DNA of 64,000 bases, taken from positions 1 to 64,000 of the forward strand of contig NZ_BAFT02000016.1 of the NCBI RefSeq assembly GCF_000308475.2. The letters run 5' to 3'. The stretch comes from Nocardia brasiliensis NBRC 14402 (lineage in GTDB: Bacteria > Actinomycetota > Actinomycetes > Mycobacteriales > Mycobacteriaceae). The first letter of the stretch is position 1. Each line of letters opens with the position of its first letter. A program made the translations under genes and the position numbers. Below, piece by piece: positions 34,763 through 38,048 of this stretch. Under the pieces are notes generated by a model. It worked only from the letters and a program-made list of their open reading frames with translations, had not been told where the DNA came from and made no database searches.

Positions 34763-35272
34763 ATGAACAACGCAAGACAACCACGACTCGGCGTCGACTT
34801 CGGCCGGGTCATCCAGGGGGCGGCCCTACGGCCGGGCGCGCCGGACACGGTCTTCCTCTCCGGCGGACATGCCGAGGCGATGCGAACTCCGCCCAGCCCC
34901 AACGCTTTCGAAGTGCTGACCCGTCTGGTCGAGCGTTTCGCCGGGCAGGCGTGGGTCATCTCCAAATGCGGTCCGCAGGTGGAGCAGCGCACTCGGCAGT
35001 GGCTCGACCATCACCACTTCTTCACGCGCACCGGGATGCCGCGCGACCACCTGCGGTTCTGCCGCGAGCGCGCGCACAAGGCGGCGCACTGCGCCGAACT
35101 CGGCATCACGCACATGATCGACGACCGGCTCGAGGTGCATCACGCGTTGCGCGGACTGGTCCCGCACCTGTACCTGTTCGGCCCGCAAACCGCACCCGTG
35201 CCCGACTGGGTATGCCACGTGCCCACCTGGATCGCGGTGGAGACGGCCGTCACAGCCGCCGTCGCCGAGTAG
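34763..35272 (+). CDS. HAD-like hydrolase of unknown function
   Basis: 169 aa from ATG 34763. It looks like the haloacid-dehalogenase fold: 'RLGVDFGRVIQG' in the place of motif I (the first Asp kept, the second replaced by Gly), 'AWVISKCGPQVEQRTRQWL' (motif II region) and 'GITHMIDDRLEVHHALRGL' (motif IV acidic pair). The missing second Asp of motif I would weaken phosphatase activity, so it may have another role. No operon partner. Confidence 0.6.
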   Translation: MNNARQPRLGVDFGRVIQGAALRPGAPDTVFLSGGHAEAMRTPPSPNAFEVLTRLVERFAGQAWVISKCGPQVEQRTRQWLDHHHFFTRTGMPRDHLRFCRERAHKAAHCAELGITHMIDDRLEVHHALRGLVPHLYLFGPQTAPVPDWVCHVPTWIAVETAVTAAVAE

Positions 35273-35408
35273 CGCCCAGCCACGGTCGAGGTGAAGAATC
35301 TGGACGGATGCCTGTATCCTGCGTAGGGATGCATTCGCGTCCGATCAATGGTGAAGACGGTGTAGACGCCCAGGTCTGCGGCCGCGACGAAGAGGAGGTG
35401 GGGTTGCC

Positions 35409-35465
35409 ATGCGCAGCGAACCTCCCAGTCGAAGGCCGCGCGGCGTCGCCCCTTCGCATTCCTGA
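35409..35465 (+). CDS. Proline/arginine-rich 18-aa leader peptide upstream of mgtE
   Basis: ATG 35409 to TGA 35463-35465 encodes MRSEPPSRRPRGVAPSHS. It has a very strong ribosome site, AGAGGAGGTG, 8-10 nt before the ATG, better than that of most genes here, and lies 88 bases before mgtE. A short Pro/Arg-rich peptide in the leader of a Mg2+ transporter recalls Salmonella mgtL ahead of mgtA, where slow or stalled translation at low Mg2+ turns the transporter on. The resemblance is in composition and position only, and homology is not claimed. Confidence 0.55.
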   Translation: MRSEPPSRRPRGVAPSHS

Positions 35466-35553
35466 GTAATCAGCGACGGTGGGGGCCGGCGCCCGCGGTG
35501 TGACTCTTCGCGCCCGCTCTTGTTCACTCACGCGTATTTGCTGAGGATCCCCC

Positions 35554-36918
35554 ATGTCGCAGACCGACGTAATCGAAGTTCGTCCGACGCTGTCCGAGTC
35601 CCTGCAGGACGCCGTCGACACCCACCGGGTCGACGCCGCGCTGGCGTGGCTCGACGAGCGCCCGCCGCATGTCATCGCCGATCAGCTGGCCCGGATGGAC
35701 GCCGTCCAGGCCGGTATGGCGTTCCGGCTGCTCGACAAGGATCTGGCGCTGGCCGTCTTCGAGGAACTCGAGCCGGTCGACCAGCAGCAGATCCTGCAGG
35801 GCCTGCGCGACCAGAGCTTCCGCGACCTGGTCGAGGGCATGGCCCCCGACGACCGCGCCCGCATGCTGCGCGAGGCGCCCGCGAAGGTGGCCAAGAAGGT
35901 GCTGGCCGGGTTGAGCCCGCGCGAACGGCGGATGACCGCCACGCTGCTCGGCTACCCGGAAGGCTCGGCCGGGCAGTACATGACGCCTGCCCTGGTGGCG
36001 TTGCCCCGCGACCTCACCGTCGCCGACGCGCTGACCGTGGTGCGGGCCAAGGGCGCCGACGCGGAAACCGTCTACACGCTGCCCGTGGTCGACGGGGGCC
36101 GGCGGCTGACCGGCATCGTCGAACTGCGCGAACTGGTGCTCAGCAAGCCGGACACGATGATCGCCGAATTGGTCGTCACCGAACCGGCTTTCGCGCGCGC
36201 GACCGACTCGGCGGAGAAGGCCGCCCGGTTGATGCGCGAGACCAACGACATCAACCTGCCCGTGGTGGACAGCGAGGATCGGCTCGTCGGGCTGCTCACC
36301 ATCGACGACGCCGTCGAGGTGATCGAGGCCGCCGACAGCGAGGACGTGGCCCGGCAGGCGGGTTCGGCGCCGTGGGAGGGCCACTACATGGCCGCCGGGG
36401 TGTTCCAGCTGGCCCGGTATCGCGCCATGTGGCTGGTGCTGTTGCTGTTCGCCGCGACCCTGACGGTCAGCGTCACCGACATGTTCGAGGGCACTCTCCA
36501 GCAGGCCGCGCATCTCGCGCTGTTCATCCCGCTGCTGATCGGCGCGGGCGGCAACGCCGGCGCGCAGGCCGCCACCGCCTGCGTGCGCGCGCTCGCCGTC
36601 GGCGAGGTGCGGGTCTCGGACTTGTTCAAGGTGATCTGGCGGGAATGCCGGGTCGGATTGGTGCTCGGCGCCATGCTCGCCGCCGCGGGACTGGTGATCG
36701 GCGGGCTGTTCGTCGGCCCGCGCGTCGCGGTGGTCGTCGGCATCACCCTGGTGCTGATCTGTGGCTGGGCCGCGACCATCGGTGGCACCATGCCGCTGCT
36801 CGCCAAGAAGCTGCGGATCGATCCGGCGGTGGTGTCCGCCCCGATGGTGACAACCCTGGTGGACGCCACCGGCTTGGTCATCTACTTCACCACCGCCAAG
36901 CTGGTGCTCGGCATCTGA
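35554..36918 (+). CDS. mgtE: MgtE-type magnesium transporter
   Basis: 454 aa. The cytosolic N domain (about 1-130, 'LDERPPHVIADQLARMD') is followed by two CBS domains ('YMTPALVALPRDLTVADAL', 'TNDINLPVVDSEDRLVGLLTIDDAVEVIE', parts) that gate the channel by Mg2+. Five transmembrane helices from about 285 onward contain the selectivity-filter region 'IPLLIGAGGNAGAQAATACVRALA' (part). The leader carries an uORF (35409). A classical M-box riboswitch was not recognised in the 281-nt upstream region. Confidence 0.92.
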   Translation: MSQTDVIEVRPTLSESLQDAVDTHRVDAALAWLDERPPHVIADQLARMDAVQAGMAFRLLDKDLALAVFEELEPVDQQQILQGLRDQSFRDLVEGMAPDDRARMLREAPAKVAKKVLAGLSPRERRMTATLLGYPEGSAGQYMTPALVALPRDLTVADALTVVRAKGADAETVYTLPVVDGGRRLTGIVELRELVLSKPDTMIAELVVTEPAFARATDSAEKAARLMRETNDINLPVVDSEDRLVGLLTIDDAVEVIEAADSEDVARQAGSAPWEGHYMAAGVFQLARYRAMWLVLLLFAATLTVSVTDMFEGTLQQAAHLALFIPLLIGAGGNAGAQAATACVRALAVGEVRVSDLFKVIWRECRVGLVLGAMLAAAGLVIGGLFVGPRVAVVVGITLVLICGWAATIGGTMPLLAKKLRIDPAVVSAPMVTTLVDATGLVIYFTTAKLVLGI

Positions 36919-37058
36919 GCCCGAACACCGCTCGGCGCAAGCGCGGTCGGCCACCGGAGATCGGCGCGGGCAGCTCCGTTAGTGCTTCGTTGACTTCCGG
37001 TTAGGACCCGGCGCGACTCTGTGTGCGATCACCCGGATACCAGCACACGGAGCCACCG

Positions 37059-38048
37059 ATGAACGTCAAATCCACCGCCGCCACCCTCGCGATCGCCGCG
37101 GGCGCCTGCCTGTTCGCGCTGCCCGCCGCGTCCGCGACGACCTACACCAACTGCGATGTCGAATCCGCCGCGCTCGCGCTGCGCGGCGAGGAAGGCGTCG
37201 TGCTCAACCAGATCAACAAGCTGCGCAAGGACGCGGGCCTGGCCGCGGTCACGCACAGCGAGGTGCTGGCGCGGCCCGCCGAATGGGCGAGCAACGACAG
37301 TGCGCGCCGGGGCAGTTCACCCGCCGACCATGTGGACACCCTCGGCCGCGATATCAAGACCCGGTTCGCGCAGTGCGGCGTGCCCGCCAACGCGCCCAAG
37401 ATCGCCGAGATCAACTTCTACGGCCGCAACGTCGAGCCGGCCGACGCCATCCGGTTCTGGTCGAATTCGCCTGGGCACCGGGCGATCATCCTCGACGGCA
37501 AACTGGACAAGGTCGGCGTCGCGGTGATCTACCAGGGCGACCGGCGGCACTGGACAGTCACCTTCGCCGCCGACCACACCACCCCGCCGCCCGCCCTGCC
37601 CGCGACCGTCACCCGGGACAACCTGAGCGGTGCGCAGCATCAGGCCGAATTCGACAAACTGGTCGCCCAGGGCTACCGGATCGGCGATATCCGGGTCACC
37701 GGGGGTAACGATCCGCGCTATTCCAGCACCTGGGTCCGCAACGACGGCCGCGCGTGGCAGGCCCGGCACGGCCTGGACGCCAAGACCTACCAGGCCGAAT
37801 TCGACAAGCTGCTGGCGCAGGGCTACCGCCTGACCCTGGTCCGCGGCTACGAGGTCAACGGCGCGTCGCGCTTCGTCGGCATCTGGGAGCGCAACGACGG
37901 CCGGGCTTGGCAAGCGCGCCACGACATCTCGGTGCAGGCCTATAACGGCACCGCGGCCCAGCTCGCCGCGCAGGGCTACCGTCTCGTGCACGAGCACCGG
38001 TACCAGGTGCGGGGACAGACCTTCGTCGCGGCCATCTGGAACAGGTGA
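37059..38048 (+). CDS. Secreted CAP (SCP-like) domain protein with tandem C-terminal repeats
   Basis: 329 aa. The signal peptide (1-27, ending 'ASATT') precedes a CAP/SCP domain, residues about 40-170: '[20 protein letters not shown]', '[10 protein letters not shown]', '[26 protein letters not shown]' (part). Three repeats of about 45 residues follow, each 'EFDKLxAQGYR...[12 protein letters not shown]', as in bacterial tandem-repeat (polyglycine-hydrolase-like) modules. The His of 'SPGHRA' is kept. Probably a cell-surface or secreted protein. The repeat region may bind a ligand. Confidence 0.85.

Follow-up and report, generated by a model that had tools for sequence, protein, structure and literature searches.

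A short conserved open reading frame upstream of mgtE in Nocardia likely lets the ribosome sense Mg2+

The window, that is, the whole stretch of 64,000 nucleotides analysed here, carries mgtE of Nocardia brasiliensis on its forward strand. The product of 35554..36918 has the Pfam domains MgtE_N, CBS and MgtE and belongs to the TIGR00400 equivalog (366 bits versus a cut-off of 232.75, NCBIfam). MgtE sequences of N. brasiliensis and N. vulneris are 99% identical to it. 3' of mgtE, positions 37023-38045 encode a protein that has a CAP domain and BTRD1 (PF17660) repeats. The leader of mgtE contains a short upstream ORF (uORF), which starts with ATG at 35409, stops with TGA at 35463-35465 and ends 88 nt before mgtE. 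A preliminary description of this DNA had reported an 18-codon ORF with a strong ribosome site in the leader of an Mg2+ channel gene, and the ATG at 35409, the Shine-Dalgarno (SD) sequence GGAGGT and the TIGR00400 protein downstream bear this out. The features of the locus are as follows.

35313..35320, + strand: putative -10 element of the leader transcript, TGTATCCT (from sequence; a prediction only)
35394..35399, + strand: SD of the uORF, GGAGGT (from sequence; each base near-invariant or invariant in the 47 Nocardia sequences of alignment A1)
35394..35425, + strand: possible hairpin A, in which SD GGAGGT pairs with ACCTCC in codons 4-6 (RNAalifold)
35409..35465, + strand: uORF, 18 codons plus stop, MRSEPPSRRPRGVAPSHS (from sequence, conservation before mgtE and codon changes on the mgtE tree)
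35409..35444, + strand: conserved peptide core, codons 1-12, MRSEPPSRRPRG (91-tip tree)
35436..35447, + strand: 5' arm of hairpin B, CCGCGCGGCGTC, which is codons 10-13 of the uORF (compensatory changes at nucleotides 1 and 2 of codon 13)
35488..35498, + strand: 3' arm of hairpin B, GGCGCCCGCGG (compensatory changes and pairing percentage)
35504..35540, + strand: C/U-rich, G-poor spacer, conceivably a Rho-loading stretch (role inferred from composition)
35543..35546, + strand: likely SD of mgtE, GAGG (from sequence)
35554..36918, + strand: mgtE, Mg2+ channel of 454 aa (Pfam domains and TIGR00400)

Signals for transcription of the leader are less distinct. A scan for sigma-70 consensus promoters found none. 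Of the 110 loci, 108 have TGTANNNT or GTANNNTGC in the 130 nt that precede the uORF, this being a loose pattern without a chance rate, and the -10-like match lies 94-101 nt from the uORF start in at least 68 of the 108. The scan for intrinsic terminators gave one weak match (35497-35514, 0.4 expected). The 37-nt spacer consists of 14 C, 13 T, 7 G and 3 A, and C exceeds G in all 85 distinct Nocardia leaders. GAGG is the usual SD of mgtE among the Nocardia rows listed; L087 has AAGG instead, and L094 has AAGGG.

The uORF is conserved in all Nocardia mgtE loci examined. We searched 118 genomes of the genus, obtained 106 strong matches to the window MgtE (two split across contigs) and took 30 loci; the other 12 genomes had no full-length match (best E 1.3e-35 or weaker). 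A search of named genomes found 137 loci, of which 80 were kept. In 110/110 loci, mgtE is preceded by a short ORF that encodes the EPPS core; the loci are not independent, as some genomes are in both sets and the distinct upstream sequences number 90. The preliminary description had named lack of conservation of the ORF as a refutation, and the idea survives this test. Nocardia accounts for 109 of the loci; the remaining one, L096, comes from Streptomyces sp. TRM70350 and has the uORF MRSEPPSSYTGAA. The conserved part ends with codon 12; beyond it, both codons 13-18 and the place of the stop differ among loci. The start codon is ATG or GTG, and 3-nt insertions near the start in L030 and L094 preserve the frame. 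The genome of the window (8.9 Mb) has a single match to the strict core pattern. An acidic codon (Asp or Glu) followed by AGT within four codons was found in a short SD-led ORF at 109/110 loci, L096 included, compared with 5 matches in 1.03 Mb of control sequence; the motif was defined post hoc, and this enrichment is descriptive. GGAGGTN{6,26}GAYAGTC occurs at six places in the same genome, one of which is an M-box uORF on contig C59, and at three in the reversed control. Given that control, the other five were taken as chance.

Codon changes indicate that the peptide itself is constrained. Changes were counted by parsimony on a FastTree tree of mgtE (109 loci, 91 distinct tips; L096, which lacks the 3' arm, was omitted). 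Glu4-Pro5-Pro6 had 25 codon changes and no amino-acid change. Codons 4, 5 and 6 changed 6, 6 and 13 times, always at the third base and always synonymously, and the three residues are invariant in 91/91 tips. The sums for codons 13-18 are 107 codon changes, 90 of them altering the residue; singly, these codons had 11, 9, 13, 10, 27 and 20 amino-acid changes in 11, 11, 18, 13, 31 and 23 codon changes, and three tips have a stop at codon 17. Codons 2, 3 and 9 had 4, 5 and 6 residue changes. Because the changes at codons 4-6 are all synonymous and those at codons 13-18 mostly alter the residue, Glu-Pro-Pro looks selected as protein. Equal numbers of synonymous and nonsynonymous changes had been named in the preliminary description as a sign against the idea, and the two are plainly unequal here. 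In the possible hairpin A the CC of Pro5 pairs with the SD, which could account for part of the synonymy at this codon.

Other codons of the core do not vary at all. Codons 7, 8, 10 and 12 (AGT, CGA, CCG and GGC) show zero changes at any base in 91/91 tips. CCG and GGC are inside hairpin B, and AGT and CGA (35427-35432) are outside it. The latter two are rare, making up 5.6% of Ser codons and 1.9% of Arg codons, respectively, in 109 Nocardia mgtE sequences. Their third-base invariance needs an RNA-level or codon-speed cause, for which the peptide alone is insufficient. AGT recurs across the groups of uORFs described below with an invariant third base, and the next base is mostly C.

The distal part of the core is also an arm of a predicted RNA hairpin. 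Alignment A1 consists of 47 of the 85 distinct Nocardia regions, chosen to be less than 95.5% alike. In hairpin B, CCGCGcGGC(G/A)(C/T)C of codons 10-13 pairs with G(G/A)(C/T)GCC..CGCGG before mgtE; 99.1% of A1 cells are paired, versus 28-61% when the arms are slid by 1-3 columns. Fourteen cells are changed on both sides, versus 5.1 in shuffles, and 0/500 shuffles, which ignore relatedness, were as high. Two of the ten pairs have changed on both sides, a number reached in 410/500 shuffles. Nucleotide 2 of codon 13 forms a Watson-Crick pair in 43/56 distinct rows versus 30.4 +/- 3.0 in shuffles (0/10,000 as high, relatedness again being ignored). The residue at codon 13 is Ala, Val, Thr or Ile, and since the bases of this codon covary with the 3' arm, the amino acid follows the pairing. 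Synonymous change throughout Glu-Pro-Pro together with compensatory change at codon 13 suggests that both the peptide and the RNA structure appear to be under selection. RNAalifold predicts hairpin A from A1 and again from a set of 40 out of 64 closer relatives; variation in its pairs is one-sided only, without compensatory support, and it leaves bases 1-2 of Glu4 and base 3 of Pro6 unpaired. The fold of the single leader is no better than that of shuffled sequences (z -1.28; 26/200 equally good). When 40 relatives were folded with codons 6-15 kept open, neither a strong stem masking the mgtE start nor a competing fold was found in Nocardia.

Similar uORFs precede mgtE outside Nocardia. MgtE orthologs were sought in samples of the order (150 genomes) and the class (197), in family f34 (22) and in genera g40 (22) and g119 (99). 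In the order and class samples, the majority of genomes had only weak matches, without an ortholog of the window MgtE, and a weak homolog in G251 (35%) was left out of the non-Nocardia loci. At 41/67 non-Nocardia loci, the 600 nt upstream of mgtE contain a short SD-led ORF in which AGT follows an acidic codon within four codons, compared with one match in 528 kb from the remainder of the same loci; here too the motif was defined post hoc and the enrichment is descriptive. The peptides follow patterns such as MGDDP.SSR, D.EP..S and MSSDS.... The motif was found in genus g40 of family f15 at 22/22 loci tested (MGDDPGSSRDT), in genus g119 of f51 at 13/19 (MSSDSHSRR, MSGDS...), in f34 at 5/8 (MRxRSS.(T/A)D.(E/D)P..S) and in f3 at 1/3 (VSSDSSSHR). 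It was absent from f14 (0/3), f31 (0/8), f16 (0/1), genus g4 of f1 (0/2) and f41 (0/1); in total, 26/67 loci lack it, including L141, whose MgtE has 71% identity. Some kin have no acidic residue (MSSSHSPYP, MPGGNSPNT, MSSRSHKFK), and MSSDSHSRRH has no Pro in the core. The core pattern itself was found in 10 of 298 genomes of the order (7 Nocardia, the M-box locus of G583 and 2 others), and the reversed control gave 1. The two others, in G245 and G230, have no start codon between SD and core and were taken as chance. In f31, a GTG-led short ORF in L142 and L147 (VPRSYPTSGRSTPRFR in L147) overlaps the mgtE start as ATGA and is a candidate for translational coupling.

Genus g40 gives the closest view of such a leader. 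All 23 loci of its 22 genomes begin with (M/V)GDD, using both GAC and GAT, and have AGT CGA; AGT CGA GAT is invariant in 21 rows (L186 and L188 left out). Genome G453 has two mgtE loci (L197 and L201) on different contigs with the same leader; L201, as a second copy, was left out of the motif count above and also has the motif. Alignment A2 contains 19 of 22 g40 leaders extracted, with L197, L199 and L201 dropped as near copies. In A2, the distal segment of the uORF pairs with GGCACGG just 5' of the mgtE ribosome site in 98.2% of cells, a percentage reached by 26/500 shuffles, and the mgtE ribosome site of the f15 leader is within a predicted stem. The distal uORF segment thus pairs before the mgtE ribosome site here as well, and therefore the Nocardia layout recurs with other letters.

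Besides mgtE leaders, M-box riboswitches are followed by related uORFs. The window has no Rfam match at gathering thresholds, M-box RF00380 included, and at E up to 5 the region 35000-35700 matched only Ms_IGR-8 (13.3 bits) and no M-box. The two M-boxes of the same genome are only on contigs C59 and C82 (149.9 and 120 bits). One (L237) is followed by the SD-led uORF VSGDSPYPSTTSAPH, and no transporter gene was identified there; the other (L238) is followed by the SD-led uORF MPGGNSPNTSLP, which has no acidic residue and precedes an MgtC-family gene. A survey of the family, with stricter filters than the search of this genome, found 24 M-boxes in 16 of 61 genomes. Within 400 nt after the M-box, 14/24 have the strict motif, 5/24 have AGT without an acidic codon and 5/24 have neither; the control gave 2 matches in 126 kb, and the motif was defined after the peptides had been seen. 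By eye, the peptides include MSGDSPYPS, MPSGDSPYS and MPDDSHSPR. Genes within 1.5 kb downstream were scanned at 13/24 loci, and L260 gave no family. Strict-motif kin are upstream of MgtC (L258, L259), MgtE (L242, L252), Nramp (L245, L254) and P-type ATPase (L243) genes. The uORF of L241, VDEPPSRYPASPGFLTAGVHRAR (VDEPPSRYP), is behind an M-box and has EPPSR.P in common with the window (MRSEPPSRRP), including AGT CGA; by eye, 16/21 bases of the core are identical (GAACC.CC.AGTCGA...CCG). The gene downstream, truncated by the end of the locus, encodes a magnesium-translocating P-type ATPase; its fragment scores 417 bits with TIGR01524, below the full-length cut-off. On contig C12 of G583, the M-boxes of L241 and L260 lie on different strands with about 250 nt between them, and their uORFs read VDEPPSRYP and VSISDSPYP.

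These comparisons place the uORF among others. The preliminary description had likened it to MgtL. The likeness holds for form, with early acidic and Pro codons, a distal overlap with a hairpin and an Mg2+ transporter downstream; as for relatives, the nearest kin found are the M-box-following uORFs of the same bacterial family, not enterobacterial MgtL. Judging from the sequences, the Nocardia mgtE uORF is most likely an M-box-free member of this M-box-associated family. The peptides are very short, and we infer common descent from the core, the codons and the position that they have in common.

Several studies bear on what such a uORF might do. In low Mg2+, ribosomes drop off at EPDP of MgtL, and mgtA is transcribed (PMC11282234, PMC11552253). 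In Salmonella, the residues Asp2 and Glu5 of MgtQ seem to make the ribosome unstable, and the RNA refolds so that mgtB is translated (PMC8092293). Behind the M-boxes of M. tuberculosis, uORF2 is reported to be expressed and controlled by SD/anti-SD pairing, with Rho, and its peptide is described as mycobacteria-specific and opaque in function (PMC12810186). The main text of that paper mentions neither Nocardia, Rhodococcus nor MgtL. In M. abscessus, uORFs before mgtC and mgtE are ribosome-protected, and the one before mgtE, which has an M-box, is termed a vcgB homolog (PMC4974804). Among open-licence full texts, judged by title and the beginning of the abstract, we found none that reports the Nocardia leader or, for actinobacteria, an mgtE leader peptide without an M-box. 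The novelty suggested in the preliminary description must accordingly be narrowed: a uORF with an M-box before mgtE has been published for M. abscessus (PMC4974804), and it is the M-box-free form and its breadth that appear new.

We propose that the short conserved ORF before mgtE likely lets the ribosome sense Mg2+ and would thereby switch mgtE. In low Mg2+, ribosomes would pause or drop off at Glu-Pro-Pro, before codon 10, with the rare codons AGT CGA directly after this stall site. Hairpin B, which starts four codons on, could then form behind a stalled or lost ribosome, and mgtE would be expressed. In ample Mg2+, the ribosome would traverse codons 10-13 and keep hairpin B open, and mgtE would be held down, either because Rho acts at the C-rich spacer or because the mgtE start is masked as in f15. 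For Nocardia, the folds showed no strong masking stem. The direction of the switch, mgtE being up in low Mg2+, is taken from Salmonella MgtL and MgtQ. From the sequence evidence above, we consider it slightly more probable than its opposite that translation of the conserved 18-codon ORF decides whether the overlapping hairpin forms and so sets mgtE by Mg2+. Against an Mg2+-dependent reading by the ribosome, the Nocardia core has only one acidic residue, versus the minimum of DPEE with which the EttA dependence of an E. coli construct became clear (PMC11282234). Also weighing against the proposal are the kin without an acidic residue or without Pro in the core, the 26/67 loci outside Nocardia that lack the motif, the third-base invariance of AGT CGA, and the single-leader fold that is no better than shuffles.

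The same pause could be read by the same hairpin for another reason. Pro5-Pro6 and the rare AGT and CGA codons are invariant at the amino-acid level, and Salmonella mgtP responds to charged tRNA-Pro (PMC8092293), so that the leader might be an attenuator that depends on tRNA or EF-P, in which the ribosome senses charged tRNA-Pro/Arg or the capacity to elongate polyproline instead of Mg2+. We regard this as rather unlikely, as kin have acidic-Ser in place of Pro-Pro, and most kin share the acidic residue, the AGT codon and a metal transporter gene downstream. If instead the reading frame were incidental, the leader would be a structured cis-RNA or a protein-binding site with a core AGUC; AGTCGA, CCG and GGC show no change, even at third bases, among 91 tips, AGT recurs in kin groups, and hairpins A and B are predicted, all of which fit an RNA element. 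Such an element would hardly explain why codons 4 and 6, outside hairpin B, vary solely at synonymous third bases, with positions 1-2 of Glu4 and position 3 of Pro6 unpaired in both hairpins. The SD, the start codon (ATG or GTG) and the frame survive two insertions, and kin of different DNA retain an SD-led short ORF. An RNA element alone is thus improbable.

A role in trans, in which the peptide would work as a small protein on the transporter or elsewhere, has been proposed for Rv1805A, the product of a mycobacterial uORF2 (PMC12810186). For the Nocardia peptide, we judge it highly improbable: only the first 12 residues are conserved, with a variable C-terminus and length, and in the Nocardia loci the ORF is part of the mgtE leader and extends into hairpin B, as is typical of a cis-acting leader peptide. 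That the region is simply a conserved 5' leader in which the ORF regulates nothing is scarcely credible in view of the selection on codons, the compensatory pairs and the recurrence before several metal transporters. Sensing of Mg2+ by the ribosome on the uORF remains the reading that we prefer.

A wider proposal is more tentative, and we put it forward as possible only. Actinobacteria may have a class-wide set of Mg2+-sensing leader peptides (EPPSR, DDPGSSR, D.EP..S, MSSDS..., typically with AGU after an acidic residue), with the ribosome as the sensor. They would stand alone before mgtE or be stacked behind an M-box before mgtA/B-like ATPase genes, mgtC, mgtE or Nramp genes, and mycobacterial uORF2 would be the second half of a two-layer switch. 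If this is true, Mg2+ sensing through ribosome stability on an acidic/Pro leader peptide reaches beyond enterobacteria to a distant phylum and to unrelated transporters. Furthermore, the conserved uORF2 behind mycobacterial M-boxes would gain a testable cis role, and the uORF family would extend past mycobacteria.

The leader can finally be compared with known systems. The M-box (ykoK) riboswitch RF00380 senses Mg2+ and precedes mgtE-type genes, and its aptamer is missing from the window leader. Mycobacterial uORF2 (Rv1805A, Rv1535A, Rv0115A; PMC12810186) and the vcgB-like uORF of M. abscessus (PMC4974804) are likewise SD-led short ORFs in leaders of Mg2+ genes. Unlike them, the uORF of the window has no M-box, and it is likened to Rv1805A and VcgB by description, not by sequence. 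Whereas uORF2 is called mycobacteria-specific (PMC12810186), the kin found here precede mgtE in several other families. MgtQ, located between mgtC and mgtB in Salmonella, is also a very short ORF with early acidic codons, and failure of its translation refolds the RNA and frees the transporter gene (PMC8092293). MgtQ differs in being intergenic and 8 aa long, and the Nocardia folds showed no stem that would mask the start of mgtE; the f15 leader resembles MgtQ in that a stem is predicted to include the ribosome site of mgtE. The enterobacterial mgtA leader peptide MgtL shares with the Nocardia uORF a short ORF, early acidic and Pro codons, an overlap with RNA structure and an Mg2+ importer downstream. 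The transporter, phylum and sequence are different, EPP stands instead of EPDP, and the likeness is one of form, as peptides of this length cannot be aligned reliably. In summary, the Nocardia uORF is MgtL-like in form and, by analogy, likely in function, yet it is most likely kin to actinobacterial M-box uORFs.
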